In this document: positions 2,224 through 33,438 of the stretch, piece after piece
How positions within the stretch are numbered: position 1 is the first letter of the stretch
Layout of the letters: each line of letters starts with the position of its first letter
NCBI GenBank assembly: GCA_003151475.1
Contig: PLXQ01000010.1
Location: 13,548 to 49,551, forward strand
Reading direction: 5' to 3'
Source: Acidimicrobiaceae bacterium
GTDB lineage: Bacteria > Actinomycetota > Acidimicrobiia > Acidimicrobiales > UBA8190
DNA length: 36,004 bases
The notes under the pieces: generated by a model
Told to the model about the DNA's origin: nothing
Database searches by the model: none
Seen by the model: only the letters and a program-made list of their open reading frames with translations
Made by a program: the position numbers and the translations under genes

Positions 2224-3303
2224 CTAGGGCGACGAGAGAGCGCTCCTCATCCGGGCGATGACCTCGTCGACGACGTCGGTGGTGGTGGCATCGCCGCCGA
2301 GATCGAAGGTCCGGACACCGTCGGCGGCGGCACCCAAGGTGGAGGAACGGATGGCGCCGGCGACGATCGCCGCGCCGGGATCTCCGCGCCGCGCCGCATA
2401 GTCGAGCACGGCGGCACAGGCCAGGAGCATGGCCATGGGGTTGGCGACATCTTTTCCGAGCAGTGACGGGGCCGTGCCGTGGGGCGCCTCGGCCATGGCC
2501 ACGGTGGGGTGGAGGTCGTCGTCGAGTGCGAGGAGGACCGATTCGGCCCCGGCGATCGAGCCGAAGAGAGCCAGGACGAGATCGGAGAGGACGTCGCCGT
2601 CGCGGTTCAATGCGGGGATGACGAGGGGCATCTCGCCGGATTCGGTGAGGAGACCGGCGTAGGCGGCATCGATGAGGATGGGGCGGTAGCGGACCTCTTG
2701 ATGGCGGAGCGCCGCTGCGTCCATCTCCTCTTTGAGCAGTCCCTCGTAGAGCGGTGAGACCGTCCACTTCGGCCCGCCGTAGACGCAGGCGTCGAGGGCG
2801 GCGGCGCTCTGGAAGGAGTACTCGGCCACGGCCCGGCAGGTGCCGCGGTCGATGCGTTCGGTGCGCCAGGCCTGCTCGTCTTTCGTCCCCGGGGTGCCCG
2901 TTCTCTTCTCCTGCGCCCCGTAGGCGTCGCCCACCGCCATGCGGACGACCACGATGGGGTGGACGACCGGCGCCAGGGGGACGACGCCGGGAATTCTCCG
3001 GCCCGTGCGGACGATGACCGAGCCACCCACCCCTTCGCGCAGGATGCGGTTGGGCGAACCGACGTCTCCCACCTCGGGGGGCGTGATGGTGGCCGCCTTC
3101 AGGCCCAGCCCGAGGGCGCGCATGGCCAGCGCCGCTTCGCTGACGACGGCGTTGGCCGTCGCCCGCCGATTCTCGAGGGAGAGATCGAAGCGCTGGAGCT
3201 CGATCCGAATACCGAGAGGCGGGGAGTTGAGGACGCGCAGCGCCTGCTCCAGGAGCTCCTGTCCCGTCTCGTCGCCCTCGCAGACCACCAACGCGGTGCC
3301 CAT
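2224..3303 (-). CDS. Isocitrate/isopropylmalate dehydrogenase family protein, divergent
   Basis: The protein has 359 residues and is a beta-decarboxylating dehydrogenase related to eukaryote-type NADP isocitrate dehydrogenases. The match runs in order: ATITPPEV (71-78), SPNRILR (83-89, carrying the Ser, Asn and Arg that bind isocitrate), RMAVGDAY (121-128, Arg and catalytic Tyr), GPKW (Lys179), LID (Asp212) and RDGDVLSD (234-241, the metal-binding aspartates). In the coenzyme site, however, it reads EAPHGTAPSLLGKDVANP instead of the HGTVTRHYR form of NADP-IDH, which resembles isopropylmalate dehydrogenases and NAD-type enzymes. It is also shorter than type-II IDH (about 400 residues). The reaction is probably oxidation and decarboxylation of a 2-hydroxy dicarboxylate; the substrate is uncertain. 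It is the last gene of the long minus-strand run, 14 bp after the LOG gene. Confidence 0.75.
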   Translation of the reverse strand: MGTALVVCEGDETGQELLEQALRVLNSPPLGIRIELQRFDLSLENRRATANAVVSEAALAMRALGLGLKAATITPPEVGDVGSPNRILREGVGGSVIVRTGRRIPGVVPLAPVVHPIVVVRMAVGDAYGAQEKRTGTPGTKDEQAWRTERIDRGTCRAVAEYSFQSAAALDACVYGGPKWTVSPLYEGLLKEEMDAAALRHQEVRYRPILIDAAYAGLLTESGEMPLVIPALNRDGDVLSDLVLALFGSIAGAESVLLALDDDLHPTVAMAEAPHGTAPSLLGKDVANPMAMLLACAAVLDYAARRGDPGAAIVAGAIRSSTLGAAADGVRTFDLGGDATTTDVVDEVIARMRSALSSP

Positions 3304-3317
3304 TGATGACCCTCGGG

Positions 3318-4469
3318 TCAGTCCACCCAGGTGTTGACGACGTCGATCATCTGGCGGAGCCGGCCGTAGTGGATGCGGTCGAAGCGGAAGGCCAGGCGGG
3401 GGAGATCGACATTGTCACGCGACGAGCGTTCGGGCGAGAGCGGCTTCGACGGTCGGATGGCGCCGCCGCCGATGACGATGTCGGCGAACCGACGGTTGAG
3501 CTCGGCCAGCTGGCCCCGCGACGGGGCGTGCTGGAGGCGCATGACGAGAAGGTCGCCCACCCAGCGGACCGAGTGGTAGTTGCGGAAGAAACCCAGGATC
3601 TCGTTGGTGGCGATGTCGACGTCGGCGGTGATGCGGTAGAGGCAGTGGTCCTCGGGTGAGACGAGACCACGGGTGGCCACCTGCTCGTCGACGAAGCGCT
3701 GCCAGCCCCGCCAGTAGGTGCCGTCGGGGACGTCCAGGAAAACGAGGGGCGCCGGTTGGGCCTTGCCCGTCTGGAGCAGGGTCAGCAATTCGAAGGCTTC
3801 GTCCAGGGTGCCGAAGCCGCCGGGGAGAACGGCATAGCCGTCGGATTCCTTGATGAGCATGAGCTTGCGGGTGAAGAAGTAGCGCATCTCGACGAGCTTC
3901 GGGTCCTGGGCGATGAAGGGGTTGGCCCCCTGCTCGTGGGGGAGGCGGATGTTCACGCCGATGGACATCTCGCGGCCGGCGCCCTCCATGCCCGCCGCCA
4001 TGATGCCGGGGCCGGCCCCGGTCACCACCATCCAGCCGTGCGAGGCCATGCGCTCGGCCAGGCGGCGGGTCTGGACGTAGAGAGGATCCTCGGGAAGGGT
4101 GCGGGCCGAGCCGAAGAAGGTGACCTTGAGGGCGTTTCGGTAAGGGCGGAAGACGCGGAAGGCCTCGGCCATCTCGGCCAGGGCGGCGGCGGCCAGCTTC
4201 AGGTCGATGGGCTCGGTGTGTTCGGCGGCCAGAAGGGCGACGGTGGCGAAGATGGCGCGGTAGAGGTCGGGTCGCTCGGTGACACCGGCCGATGCGAGCA
4301 GCGCGTCGACGAGATGGGCGTGGGCCGGATCGAGGACCTCGGTCGGTAGCTGCTCGGCCCCGGCGGTGTCGGCCGACAACGGGGGAGGGGGGGACTCGTC
4401 CTCCAGAGGAGTAACGGTGTCTCCCGGCGGTGTGACGGTGTCGCCCGGCGGTGTGACGGAGTCGGTCAC
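3318..4469 (-). CDS. LOG family protein (nucleoside 5'-monophosphate phosphoribohydrolase-like)
   Basis: This 383-residue protein has the LOG/lysine-decarboxylase-like Rossmann domain. Visible motifs are FFGSART, the glycine-rich VVTGAGPGIMAAGMEGAG, and the signature PGGFGTLDE, whose Glu and preceding Arg (MRYFFTRK) form the active site in cytokinin-activating LOG enzymes. Members cleave AMP or related nucleotides to base and ribose phosphate; the long forms with an extra C-terminal part, like this one, are mostly uncharacterised. The reading frame is open far upstream inside fbiC, but that extension is an antisense-like shadow. I chose GTG at 4469, 5 bases after the fbiC stop, with GAGGG overlapping that stop as a weak Shine-Dalgarno. 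The first 30 residues are low-complexity with a repeated TPPGDTV unit, so the true start could lie slightly inside. Confidence 0.8.
   Translation of the reverse strand: MTDSVTPPGDTVTPPGDTVTPLEDESPPPPLSADTAGAEQLPTEVLDPAHAHLVDALLASAGVTERPDLYRAIFATVALLAAEHTEPIDLKLAAAALAEMAEAFRVFRPYRNALKVTFFGSARTLPEDPLYVQTRRLAERMASHGWMVVTGAGPGIMAAGMEGAGREMSIGVNIRLPHEQGANPFIAQDPKLVEMRYFFTRKLMLIKESDGYAVLPGGFGTLDEAFELLTLLQTGKAQPAPLVFLDVPDGTYWRGWQRFVDEQVATRGLVSPEDHCLYRITADVDIATNEILGFFRNYHSVRWVGDLLVMRLQHAPSRGQLAELNRRFADIVIGGGAIRPSKPLSPERSSRDNVDLPRLAFRFDRIHYGRLRQMIDVVNTWVD
4415..4456. repeat. 21-bp tandem repeat in the LOG gene 5' end
   Basis: Two adjacent 21-bp units, 4415-4435 and 4436-4456, are identical but for one base. 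They encode the repeated TPPGDTV-like heptapeptide at the N-terminus of the LOG protein. Because the period is a multiple of three, copy-number change would not break the frame. A run of G residues just downstream (4380-4393) encodes a proline stretch. Confidence 0.85.
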
Positions 4470-4474
4470 GGCCC

Positions 4475-6760
4475 TCAGCAGGGGGCGGGGACGCGGCCGT
4501 AGAGGGTGGTGCGCTGCTCCAGGCGGCGTCCCAGGGGTTCCACGACGGCGGCGAATTCGTCCTCGCCCATGAACTGGCCGTGACTGGCACCCGCGGCGCG
4601 CGAGATGTTCTCGTCCATGAGGGTGCCGCCCAGATCGTTGACCCCGGCGCGGAGCAACTGGGTGGCGCCGACGGCTCCCATCTTCACCCAGGAGACCTGG
4701 ATGTTGTCGATGGAGCCGTGGTAGGCGATGCGGCCCACGGCGTGCATGAGGAGCGCCTCGCGGAAGGTGGGGCCCCGGCGGGCCTTGTGCTGGAGGTAGA
4801 TGGGGGTGGCCATGTGGACGAAGGGGAGGGGGACGAACTCGGTGAAGCCACCGGTCTCGGCCTGCAGAGCGCGGGTGCGGACGATGTGGCGGGCCCAGGA
4901 GCGGGGGCGTTCGACGGCGCCGAACATGATGGTGACGTTCGAACGGAGGCCCACCGAGTGGGCCGTGCGGTGCGCCTCGAGCCACTGCTCGGTGTTGATC
5001 TTGTCCGGGCACAGAACGGCGCGGACCTCGTCGTCCAAGATCTCGGCCGCCGTGCCCGGCAGGGTGGCGAGGCCGGCGTCTTTCAGCCGGCGGAGGTAGT
5101 CGGCCAGGGGCTCGTCGAGACGCTTGGCCCCTTCGGTGACCTCGAGAGCGGTGAAGGCGTGGATGTGGATGCGGTCGGTGGCGGCGCGGACGGCGCGGAT
5201 GACGTCCAGGTAGTAGTCGCCGTCGAAGGAGGGGTGGATACCTCCTTGGAGACAGACCTCGGTGGCGCCCAGCTCTTCGGCCTCGCGGACGCGGTCGGTG
5301 ATGTCGGAGAGCTCGAGGAGATAGGGCGAGCCCCGGAGGTTGAGCGAGAGGGGACCCTTCGAGAAAGCACAGAAGCGGCACTTGAAGGTGCAGACGTTGG
5401 TGTAGTTGATGTTGCGGTTGGCCACCCAGGTGACGATGTCTCCCACGGTGTCGGCCCGGAGCTGGTCGGCCAGCTCGGCCACGGCCCGGACCTCGCGACC
5501 GCGGGCGCCGAAGAGGGTGACGATCTCGTCCTCGTCGGGAACCTGGCCCAGAGTGACCCCGGTGAGGACCTCGGCCAGCGGACTGCCCGCACCCGGTAAC
5601 GGCGCCACGGCTGGAGCTTCGGTGACCGCCGCCAGGAGAGCGGGGGGATCGGCCGTGCCCCCCGAGCACCAGGGGTCCTCGCGGCCGAGGCCGTCGGCGT
5701 CGGCGTGGTCGAGGACGAAGAAGCGCATGGCCGGGTCGAGGAAGCGCTCGGGTTGGTGGGCGAACTCGGGGTAGACGGTGAGGCGGGGGGCGAGGGTCAT
5801 ACCGGCCGCCTCGGTGGCGGCGTGCAGGATGTCGAGGCCGGGCCAGGCCCGTTCGGGGTTGACGTGGTCGATAGTGACGGGCGAGACACCGCCCCAGTCG
5901 TCGATGCCCGATTCGAGCAGCGGTGCCAGGTCGTCCGAAAGGTTGGGCGGCGCCTGAACATGGACATCGGCCGGGAGAAGGAGCCGGGCCACGGCGATGG
6001 TCCAGGCCAGTTCGTCGGCAGGACAGGGGGGCGCGTTGTGCATGGCCGTGTCCGGCTTCGGTAAGAAATTCTGGACGATGACCTCTTGGATGTGGCCGAA
6101 GCTCCGATGGGAGTCGGCGATGGCAGTGAGGGTGTCGATGCGACCGGCGCGTGTCTCGCCGATGCCGACGAGGAGGCCGGTGGTGAAGGGAATGGAGAGC
6201 TCACCGGCGAAGCGCAGCGTGGCCAGGCGGCGGTCGGGTGTCTTGTCCGGCGCGCCGCGGTGACAGGCCAGATCGGGATCGAGGGACTCGAGCATCATGC
6301 CCTGGCTGGCCGAGACCGGACGGAGCCGTTCGAGGTCGTCCTTGGCCAGGGCACCGGCGTTGGCATGGGGGAGAAGACCCGTCTCGTCTCGGACCAAGGT
6401 GCAGGCGGCCACCAGGTAGTCGACGGTGGAGGTGAAGCCGTGCTCGGTGAGCCACTGCCGGGCCACCGGGTAGCGGTCTTCGGGGCCTTCGCCCAGGGTG
6501 AAGAGCGCCTCGTGGCAGCCCGCGGCGGCGCCGGCCCGGGCGATGGCCAGGACTTCGTCGGAGGAGAGGTAGGCGGCGGCGAGGCGGGCCGGAGGCTTGG
6601 CGAAGGTGCAGTAGCCGCAGCGGTCACGGCAGAGGTGGGTGAGGGCGATGAAGACCTTCGGGGAATAGGTGATCCGGTTCCCGTGGCTGGCGAACCGGAC
6701 GGCCCGGGCCTCGGCCTGCAGGTCGGCGAGGGTGGCCACGAGGAGGTCGTTGCGGTCCAC
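4475..6760 (-). CDS. fbiC: FbiC, bifunctional F0 synthase (CofG-CofH fusion)
   Basis: This 761-residue fusion makes F0, the deazaflavin core of cofactor F420, from 5-amino-6-ribitylaminouracil and tyrosine. It has two radical SAM domains, each with a CxxxCxxC cluster motif. The CofG half comes first with CRDRCGYC (Cys44, 48, 51), the CofH half second with CTFKCRFC (Cys457, 461, 464). Both halves look complete, including the CofH segment TEVCLQGGIHPSFDGDYY. The frame is open back into pgl, but homology begins at VDRNDLLVATLADLQ. I prefer GTG at 6760 because AAGGTGA stands 6 bases before it; GTG at 6769 is possible. It follows pgl by 52 bp and precedes the LOG gene by 5 bp, so the three are probably one transcript. 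It indicates that this organism makes F420. Confidence 0.95.
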   Translation of the reverse strand: MDRNDLLVATLADLQAEARAVRFASHGNRITYSPKVFIALTHLCRDRCGYCTFAKPPARLAAAYLSSDEVLAIARAGAAAGCHEALFTLGEGPEDRYPVARQWLTEHGFTSTVDYLVAACTLVRDETGLLPHANAGALAKDDLERLRPVSASQGMMLESLDPDLACHRGAPDKTPDRRLATLRFAGELSIPFTTGLLVGIGETRAGRIDTLTAIADSHRSFGHIQEVIVQNFLPKPDTAMHNAPPCPADELAWTIAVARLLLPADVHVQAPPNLSDDLAPLLESGIDDWGGVSPVTIDHVNPERAWPGLDILHAATEAAGMTLAPRLTVYPEFAHQPERFLDPAMRFFVLDHADADGLGREDPWCSGGTADPPALLAAVTEAPAVAPLPGAGSPLAEVLTGVTLGQVPDEDEIVTLFGARGREVRAVAELADQLRADTVGDIVTWVANRNINYTNVCTFKCRFCAFSKGPLSLNLRGSPYLLELSDITDRVREAEELGATEVCLQGGIHPSFDGDYYLDVIRAVRAATDRIHIHAFTALEVTEGAKRLDEPLADYLRRLKDAGLATLPGTAAEILDDEVRAVLCPDKINTEQWLEAHRTAHSVGLRSNVTIMFGAVERPRSWARHIVRTRALQAETGGFTEFVPLPFVHMATPIYLQHKARRGPTFREALLMHAVGRIAYHGSIDNIQVSWVKMGAVGATQLLRAGVNDLGGTLMDENISRAAGASHGQFMGEDEFAAVVEPLGRRLEQRTTLYGRVPAPC

Positions 6761-30876: not shown

Positions 30877-32499
30877 ATGTTGCCCTATGCCGACGAGACG
30901 TTCACCGACGATGAGGCGGAGGTCCTGCGCCCGTACGTCACGAACCTCGAAGGCCCGGTCTTTGCCCTGGTCAACCTGCCTGAAGTGGTGAAGGGCGCTC
31001 TGTTCGCCCGCTACTCCCGGTCGGGCAAGAGCCTGCGCCGGCTCTTCCTCGACGAGTTCGTGGGGGACCTCGACGTGAGCGGCGACGCCGGCGTGGACGC
31101 CACCATGGGTCTGCGACGGGCCGAGGAGTTGTACGAGAAGGTCTTCTTCGAATACGGCGACGATTCCGTGGCCCAGTTGGGTGGGGTCCACCTGGCGTGT
31201 GAGCAGGCCTCGAACGTCTTGACCAAGGTGCTCGAGTGGGGTCGGCTGATGGCCTACCTGGAGCAGTCGACGCGCTACATCGTCTACGACTCGCGGCTGG
31301 CTACCGGCCACTACCGGTACTACCGCGATCCCGACGTCCTCGACTCGCCCTTCGGGGCGCGCTTCGTGGGCGACATGGACCGGATGTTCGACACCTACGC
31401 CACCCTGCTCCCGCAGCTGCAGGCTTTTCTCACCCGCCGCTTCCCGCGCCAGGCCGGTGACTCTGACTTCGTCCACCGGCAGTCGATCCGGGCTAAGGCC
31501 CTCGACGCCCTGCGGGGACTGCTGCCGGCCGGGTCGCTGTCGAACGTGGGCATCTACGGCACCGGCCAGGCCTATGAGATGTTGCTTCTGCGGATGCGCT
31601 CACATCCTCTTCCCGAGGCGCGGCGCTACGCCGATCTCATCTTGACCGAGCTGCGCAAGGTCATCCCTTCGTTTCTCCAGCGCGTGGATCTGCCTGACCG
31701 CGGCGGAGTGTGGTCGGAGTACCTGGCTTCGACGCGTACCGATGTCGACGAGGTGGTGGGTCACCTGTGGCCCGACGCTCGGGACGCAGAACCCGAGGTG
31801 CCGAACTCCGTCACCCTCGAGGACTGGGATCCCGAGGGTGAGGAAAAGGTCATCGCCGCCATGTGCTATCCGCACATAGCTCTGCCCGAAACCGAGGCGC
31901 TGCGGCGGGTGCGCGCCCTTTCCACCGAGGACAAACGCGCCGTCGTCCGGGCCTATGTGGGTGACAGGACGAATCGCCGGCACCGTCCGGGGCGGGCTTT
32001 CGAGCGCACCGACTACCGCTTCGACATCGTCTCGGACTACGGCGCCTTCCGGGACCTTCAACGACACCGGATGTTGACCATCGACTGGCAACCGTTGACA
32101 CCGTCGCTCGGCTACGACGTCCCCGACATCGTGAGCGAAGCGGGCATCGCCGATGAGTTCGAATCCTCGTTGTCGCGGTGCCGCGATCTCTACGAGGACA
32201 TGGCCCCGACGTTTCCGCACCAGGCCCCCTACGCCGTGGCACTGGCCTTTCGCATCCGCTACGTGATGCAGATGAACGCCCGGGAGGCGATGCACGTACT
32301 CGAACTGCGTTCGGGCCCGCAGGGACATCCCGTCTACCGCCGGGTGGCGCAGGAGATGCACCGCCTGATTGCCGAGCGCGCCGGGCACCGCCTGATTGCC
32401 GAAGCCATGACGTTCGTGGATCACGACGAGCACGAACTCGAACGACTCGACGCCGAAAGACGGGCCGAGGCCCGCCGCGAGGCCGCCGCGCCGCTGTAA
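30877..32499 (+). CDS. Double-length ThyX-like protein with split signature motif
   Basis: The 540-residue protein is made of two ThyX-like halves. ThyX is the FAD-dependent thymidylate synthase (about 220-250 residues, signature RHRxxSxxxxSxR). In the N-half, YGDDSVAQLGGVHLACEQAS leads into WGRLMAYLEQSTRY (121-134): the second part of the signature (S, R, Y) is kept, the RH and first Ser are lost. In the C-half, LQRHRMLTIDWQ (394-405) keeps RHR but loses the serines, and NAREAMHVLELR (467-478) matches the ThyX helix NxRxxxHFLxLR. The N-half equivalent of that helix (GTGQAYEMLLLRM) is degenerate. Whether the two halves complement each other in one site, or the protein has another activity, is open. 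It follows helY by 71 bp. Confidence 0.8.
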   Translation: MLPYADETFTDDEAEVLRPYVTNLEGPVFALVNLPEVVKGALFARYSRSGKSLRRLFLDEFVGDLDVSGDAGVDATMGLRRAEELYEKVFFEYGDDSVAQLGGVHLACEQASNVLTKVLEWGRLMAYLEQSTRYIVYDSRLATGHYRYYRDPDVLDSPFGARFVGDMDRMFDTYATLLPQLQAFLTRRFPRQAGDSDFVHRQSIRAKALDALRGLLPAGSLSNVGIYGTGQAYEMLLLRMRSHPLPEARRYADLILTELRKVIPSFLQRVDLPDRGGVWSEYLASTRTDVDEVVGHLWPDARDAEPEVPNSVTLEDWDPEGEEKVIAAMCYPHIALPETEALRRVRALSTEDKRAVVRAYVGDRTNRRHRPGRAFERTDYRFDIVSDYGAFRDLQRHRMLTIDWQPLTPSLGYDVPDIVSEAGIADEFESSLSRCRDLYEDMAPTFPHQAPYAVALAFRIRYVMQMNAREAMHVLELRSGPQGHPVYRRVAQEMHRLIAERAGHRLIAEAMTFVDHDEHELERLDAERRAEARREAAAPL

Positions 32500-32946: not shown

Positions 32947-33438
32947 ATGGCCGACGACCTGGATGAAGTGACAGAACCTGACGAGCTCGAGGGCGCCGAG
33001 CTCGAGGATCTCGCCGACGACGAGCTGATCGACGAGGACCTCGTCGATCCCTTGGCCGACGACGACGATCTGGTCGACGACCTGGTCGACGAGGAATTGG
33101 TCGAGGTGGAGCCCGTGGTCGTCCCCGTGGCCAAGGCCAAAAAGGCGGCCAAAGCGGCTCCGGCGGCCGCGCCGGCGGCGGAAGAGGCCGAGGAGGACGA
33201 CGACGAGGTCGACGACGAGGATGTCGAGGCCAGCCTGGACGAGATCCTGAAGGAGCGCCTCGTCGTCGAAGAAGAAGTCGAGGACGAGGAGGTCGCCGAG
33301 CCCGACGACAGGTCCGAGTCATCGGAACGGGTGCTGCCCAAGCAAGCCGACGAGTTCGTCTGCAGCTCGTGCTTCTTGGTGAAGAACGCCAGCCAGCTGG
33401 CCGACCCCGACAAGGGGCTGTGCCGGGACTGCGTGTGA
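32947..33438 (+). CDS. DUF4193-like protein with long acidic N-terminus
   Basis: The protein has 163 residues. The C-terminal 35 residues (LPKQADEFVCSSCFLVKNAS, ending LCRDCV) match the actinobacterial DUF4193 family and form a CxxC...CxxC zinc-ribbon-like knuckle. The N-terminal 120 residues are extremely acidic, mostly Asp, Glu, Leu and Val in repeated steps, broken by a Lys/Ala/Pro patch (KAKKAAKAAPAAAPAAEEA, about 63-81). Usual family members are about 100 residues, so the acidic and Lys/Ala parts are an unusual extension. No membrane segment is present. Function is unknown; the ribbon could bind protein or nucleic acid. The next gene follows after 33 bp. Confidence 0.85.
   Translation: MADDLDEVTEPDELEGAELEDLADDELIDEDLVDPLADDDDLVDDLVDEELVEVEPVVVPVAKAKKAAKAAPAAAPAAEEAEEDDDEVDDEDVEASLDEILKERLVVEEEVEDEEVAEPDDRSESSERVLPKQADEFVCSSCFLVKNASQLADPDKGLCRDCV

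Follow-up and report, generated by a model that had tools for sequence, protein, structure and literature searches.

A fused double ThyX with a predicted divided active site in Acidimicrobiaceae and related tandem proteins

A 540-residue protein is encoded in a 36,004-nucleotide stretch of an Acidimicrobiaceae bacterium genome (contig PLXQ01000010.1, positions 13,548 to 49,551; hereafter the window). We interpret it, with a probability of about 0.8, as a fused double ThyX, likely the sole thymidylate synthase of its cell, in which each working site is predicted to combine the RHR motif and flavin residues of the C-terminal half (C-half) with the loop of the N-terminal half (N-half) that carries the helping acids and binds deoxyuridylate (dUMP), E-x-S-x-R-Y. 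Two fused chains would pair into a pseudo-tetramer that, from 222 symmetry, would hold two complete sites, the other two having neither RHR nor S-R-Y; the latter would be incomplete because the N-half W-G-R and the C-half loop, with S, R and Y lost, lack the needed residues. The data themselves show the two Thy1 halves, the constancy of the split, how thyA, thymidine kinase and dihydrofolate reductase genes are distributed, and the predicted fold; from these we infer the quaternary assembly, the count of two sites out of four and the catalytic activity. The features are as follows (types I and II are described below).

30877..32499, + strand: fused double ThyX gene, 540 aa, ATG start, supported by Thy1 matches and relatives
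30877..31746, + strand: N-half (residues 1-290, boundary approximate), Thy1 stretch retaining the acid/dUMP loop
31798..32496, + strand: C-half (residues 308-540, boundary approximate), Thy1 domain retaining RHR and the flavin adenine dinucleotide (FAD) helix
31237..31278, + strand: N-half signature W121-G-R...E129-x-S131-x-R133-Y134; E, S, R and Y in 328/328 relatives
32062..32070, + strand: C-half R396-H397-R398, conserved in the tandem alignments
32275..32310, + strand: C-half helix N467-x-R469...H473...L477-R478; R469 in 260/261 type I proteins, R478 in 328/328 relatives
31981..31983, + strand: C-half H369, equivalent of the folate-stacking H53, in 256/261 type I proteins
31513..31515, + strand: N-half R213 of R-x-L-L-P, 328/328, which we take to have a ligand role
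31159..31161, + strand: N-half D95 in place of H53, 261/261 in type I; H in 64/64 type II proteins
31567..31569, + strand: N-half Q231 in place of R165, 261/261 in type I; R in 64/64 type II proteins

An in-frame stop lies upstream of the ATG of this open reading frame (ORF), with just four sense codons between them. The Pfam scan found two Thy1 stretches within the single protein (109.3 bits in total); Thy1 was the sole Pfam domain listed, and the ThyA domain PF00303 was not found in the 540 residues. The best family-profile match to Mycobacterium tuberculosis ThyX fell in the N-half, and the relatives with an organism name among the 120 best listed were Acidimicrobiales. A preliminary description, made from the letters alone, had claimed that the ThyX signature is split between the halves. 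Re-reading the ORF reproduced E129, S131, R133 and Y134 with WGR in the N-half (residues 121-134, WGRLMAYLEQSTRY), RHR at 396-398 with the end of the signature lost in the C-half (residues 396-407, RHRMLTIDWQPL), and the C-half helix at 467-478 (NAREAMHVLELR). The ThyX fold, on which the same description depended, was predicted directly for the C-half of the window protein and, for the N-half, in a type II relative; the first-listed fold match for the C-half was PDB 6j61 (the Thy1 of Thermus thermophilus, which by the entry title has an extra C-terminal domain). Among solved structures, the protein's sequence alone matched nothing, and with the family profile all matches were ThyX except one at E 0.45.

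The split is a trait of the family and not a chance event. A first alignment comprised 61 tandem proteins, that of the window and those of 60 genomes from a single class. Every one of the 60 loci fetched contained one tandem frame, and the duplicates L001, L002 and L031 were excluded. N-half E129, S131, R133 and Y134 and C-half R396, H397, R398 and R478 were each present in 61/61. The set was then enlarged with 355 of 360 database proteins (five fragments below 480 aa were dropped) and further loci to 533 proteins, which a redundancy filter reduced to 328; each list of database relatives gave the 120 top-ranked among 8000 candidates scored, and more distant tandem proteins lie outside this sample. 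Down to about 21% identity, the four N-half residues and C-half R396, H397, L477 and R478 were retained in all 328, a positive answer to the suggested check of whether homologues of this length conserve the split. The third residue of RHR was found in 328/328, or in 327/328 with L214 counted against, as L214 reads R-H-N-R and scores as RHR only via an alignment gap. With that reading of L214, every signature residue occurs once per chain in 328/328. Neither RHR at the N-half place nor E-x-S-x-R-Y in the C-half was found in any of the 328 proteins, and none had the complete signature RHR...S-x-R-Y inside one domain of either half; a homologue with two full signatures, which would have spoken for simple decay, was thus absent from the sample. 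At the N-half RHR place, type I proteins mostly have W/R/K-G-R and type II proteins D-E-Q, the latter itself conserved (63, 64 and 60 of 64). As a control, 22 single-domain ThyX rows (21 distinct) had both parts of the signature within a single chain; since these rows were selected by a loose form of the same motif, they show the register and not the frequency. One of the 23 control loci tried, L032, was without the motif, with R-N-Y in place of RHR and S-T-R-F. In G119 the minus strand of L032 encodes, beside the tandem gene of that genome, a second Thy1 protein with a single domain and 289 codons.

This division follows the subunit roles described for ordinary ThyX, a studied drug target that the literature passages present as a homotetramer with four sites. 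According to passages of PMC6514825, three subunits build a site of M. tuberculosis ThyX: A supplies RHR (95-97) and R199, B supplies S71 and R190, and C supplies R87, S105, R107 and Y108 together with a backbone contact at 103. For Thermotoga maritima ThyX, passages of PMC11940539 place R78 toward the flavin and S88, Y91 and R90 as helping acids, with H53 contributed by a third monomer. In the fused protein, the C-half carries the A-role residues and the N-half carries S, R and Y of the C role. The B role differs between two types of tandem protein. Type I, whose 261 proteins belong by their displayed names to Actinomycetota, Bacteroidota and Delongbacteria, has the H53 and R165 equivalents in the C-half (H in 256/261, R in 260/261), and D and Q at these places in the N-half (261/261). 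Type II, with 64 database proteins that, where a name is given, come from Terriglobales and Acidobacteriia, has them in the N-half (64/64), with E/D and A/S/G at the C-half places. The B-role serine breaks this rule, being in the N-half in types I and II alike; C-half R373, conserved in 61/61 tandem proteins, may substitute for it in type I. A protein of the jumbo phage Tunturi_5 resembles type II, and the proteins of a Vibrio phage (L213) and a Paenibacillus plasmid (L214) retain the N-half H, with the other places looser. L179 was the one locus to emerge from a scan of viral sequences with A1; its positions 2950-4593 hold a type I tandem thyX, downstream of hexapeptide-repeat-like genes on an IMG/VR-listed contig of 60,850 bases.

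In a tree of the halves, the N-halves of both types grouped together (support 100/99) and the C-halves did so weakly (78/57), with the long branch of the L214 C-half outside. Types I and II thus group by half and not by lineage, which makes the split old, and the tree favours one old duplication. More tentatively, a single fused ancestor might have given rise to two split geometries, with the A and B roles on the C-halves in type I and the B role (H53, R165) on the N-half in type II, and hence to two distinct asymmetric tetramers. The incomplete sites, whose altered residues are conserved in their turn (type I has D-D-S and Q231, type II D-E-Q), might now be closed or regulatory, in the main enzyme for thymidylate (dTMP) of at least one actinobacterial class; we regard this whole scenario as less likely than not.

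The gene content of the genomes points the same way. Apart from the fused gene, the window's genome (93% complete) had no Thy1, thyA, thymidine kinase (TK) or Pfam dihydrofolate reductase (DHFR) match; the suggested check for thyA or a normal thyX hence found neither, and a heteromer with a separate ThyX was set aside for the window, as its genome shows no other Thy1. Two Thy1 matches were taken as a fused gene, which the 60 fetched loci confirm; a few others lie in short frames. Among 148 class genomes, 102 had at least two Thy1 matches (a third in G119 and G020), 29 had one and 17 none; of the one-match genomes, 28 belong to a family of small genomes whose only ThyX is canonical and ~220 residues long, and the other is G016, with a short frame. 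The 110 genomes at least 90% complete divided 92/9/9 into two or more, one and no match, and thyA was found in 3/92, 0/9 and 9/9 of these, respectively. Both thyA and TK were absent from 48/92 tandem genomes. Counting the Pfam type of DHFR only, one of 89 tandem genomes without thyA had a match (G099) vs 6/9 thyA-only genomes, and passages of PMC9931769 state that folA is often missing from ThyX users. Outside the class, 55 chosen genomes were scored with the tandem profile and 48 had the fused gene, one of them (G266) with a partial thyA match; the counts on replacement of thyA and folA are those of the complete class genomes. By these sequence matches, the fused gene behaves as its genome's only thymidylate synthase.

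Weak single Thy1 matches in G156, G184, G195, G217 and G296 were considered as half-genes of a split tandem; this was dropped because the one examined closely, L219, proved to be a single ThyX with circular permutation, and L223 looks similar. L219:1369-2265 encodes ~300 residues with the signature and FAD helix first and the canonical N-terminal piece last; L220-L223 were grouped with it, L223 by likeness and the other three by the same partial Thy1 match. The five genomes of L219-L223 have no tandem gene and no full thyA match. Weak PF00303 matches of ~35-45 bits, perhaps divergent ThyA, occurred in many Actinomycetota genomes (G162, G166, G176 and others), several of them Thy1-free.

The preliminary description had left a choice between an active site divided between the copies and another flavin- or nucleotide-dependent job. 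The former is well supported by a split that is invariant across phyla, matches the documented subunit roles and sits in a gene that behaves as the genome's only thymidylate synthase; the latter is disfavoured because thyA, another thyX and often TK are absent. A departure from dTMP synthesis, comparable to the atypical Corynebacterium glutamicum ThyX (dispensable for thymidylate according to its title) or to PolB, a methylase of UMP/dUMP, would account for the altered second site, and the fold matches include ThyX-fold proteins with other roles by title (3ge9, 3fnn, 4p5b). We nevertheless consider it very unlikely, given that thyA is lacking in 89/92 complete tandem genomes (48 of these also without TK) and present in 9/9 complete Thy1-free genomes, and that the equivalents of R78/H79/R80, S88, R90, Y91 and R174 all lie where the split predicts in the 328 proteins, L214 excepted for the third R. 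One half might instead make full sites by canonical one-domain chemistry using other residues, the other being structural only: the best ThyX fold match is the C-half alone, which retains the flavin residues. However, the C-half is without the S, R and Y to which passages of PMC11940539 and PMC6514825 assign acid catalysis and dUMP binding, and invariant E, S, R and Y would be unexpected of a merely structural N-half, making this explanation most improbable. Neutral complementary decay, meaning only that one set of sites was kept, draws on the general knowledge that such degeneration after duplication is common and need not be adaptive; the clustering by half (weak for the C-halves), which dates the split as old, and the conservation of the replaced places themselves, such as D-E-Q in type II, leave it little probability, although both would be compatible with a neutral origin.

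Several observations weigh against the divided-site interpretation. The protein scored 44.4 bits against the 87.9-bit equivalog cut-off of NCBIfam thyX (TIGR02170), and the window's own N-half was absent among the fold matches listed, the rows being filled by one half. At the place of the C-role R87 of M. tuberculosis the N-half has N113, with no arginine counterpart, a mismatch softened by the absence of R87 from several single-domain ThyX. The B-role serine of type I (S97, 261/261) belongs to the N-half, apart from the H and R in the C-half. The type I N-half retains the third arginine of RHR (R123), and a minority of N-halves has the first (34/149 loci, 9/49 in P1-120 and 18/62 in P121-240). 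Three tandem genomes had a thyA match, G009 (in two pieces), G114 and G063 (weak); G009 and G114 had tandem gene, thyA and DHFR together, and G099 had DHFR. G119 (84% complete) carries a second, deviating Thy1 gene. Eight of the 17 class genomes without Thy1 (73-87% complete) were also without thyA, so missing genes do occur. Fisher tests gave 4.7e-11 for any Thy1 vs thyA and 5.4e-7 for the DHFR counts (1/89 vs 6/9), values that overstate independence because the genomes are related. DHFR also matched in control ThyX genomes, e.g. that of T. maritima, and its absence is therefore supportive only.

In the window, a DSHCT-domain helicase gene precedes the fused thyX. A DSHCT helicase match lay upstream on the same strand in 39/60 loci (next-door, with less than 2 kb between midpoints, in 8/60), and a DUF4193-like match downstream in 29/60; the latter is a D/E-rich protein for which low-complexity matches are possible. 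The DUF4193 protein of the window (32947-33435) has a long, acidic, D/E-rich N-terminal part. In phage Tunturi_5 a dCMP deaminase gene adjoins the tandem gene with a dUTPase nearby, and on a Euzebya plasmid a dCTP deaminase lies three genes upstream; these neighbours are consistent with dTMP synthesis. A phage dCMP deaminase (L212:3941-4903) has a carbohydrate-binding CBM_5_12 match at residues 170-209. A DHFR gene lies near the tandem gene in Parabacteroides, and the folA rule may therefore fail there; in L215:4989-10275 (Parabacteroides distasonis) DHFR follows the tandem thyX four genes on, in a record labelled plasmid with chromosomal-looking gene content.

The fused protein shares with ThyX (PF02511, Thy1; EC 2.1.1.148) the fold, the catalytic residue set if both halves are combined, and genomes in which thyA is replaced and folA frequently missing. 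Unlike ThyX, it has two fused, diverged Thy1 domains, neither with a full signature, and two predicted complete sites per four-domain assembly instead of four. C. glutamicum ThyX (PDB 3ge9, 3fnn) has the same fold and is structurally atypical by title, but is a single domain, given its chain of ~255 residues, in a host that is ThyA-dependent by entry title. T. thermophilus Thy1 (6j61) is by title also a longer ThyX, but its database chain of 270 residues means that it is not a double one. A similar logic was found in passages of PMC7581365 on the trypanosomatid deoxyhypusine synthase heterotetramer DHSc/DHSp, a former homotetramer of diverged paralogues with two live and two dead sites, although that enzyme is unrelated and its genes are separate and unfused. 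Judged by title and abstract start, none of the open-licence papers listed dealt with a double or fused ThyX, and the passages of PMC9931769, PMC5954106 and PMC10733785 with duplication or fusion wording held none on ThyX. Passages of PMC7824862 state that ThyA-type enzymes and ThyX are anticorrelated in jumbo phages, and make no mention of a double form.

Overall, because its working appears ThyX-like and no single domain carries the full signature, we classed the protein as a variant. This fused form of ThyX is real and widespread, seems not to have been described before, and very likely has its active site divided between the halves; it is probably active. The double-length ThyX, which many actinobacteria have and which also occurs in some other bacteria and a few large phages, likely has half the active sites of its ordinary relatives, a real difference that a common database name conceals. 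dTMP synthesis is essential, and this asymmetric form would separate the subunit roles naturally; each active-site role could be mutated in one half alone, and the model of a site built by three subunits could then be tested directly. The fused form would further provide a well-sampled example of duplication turning a homomer into a half-active assembly.
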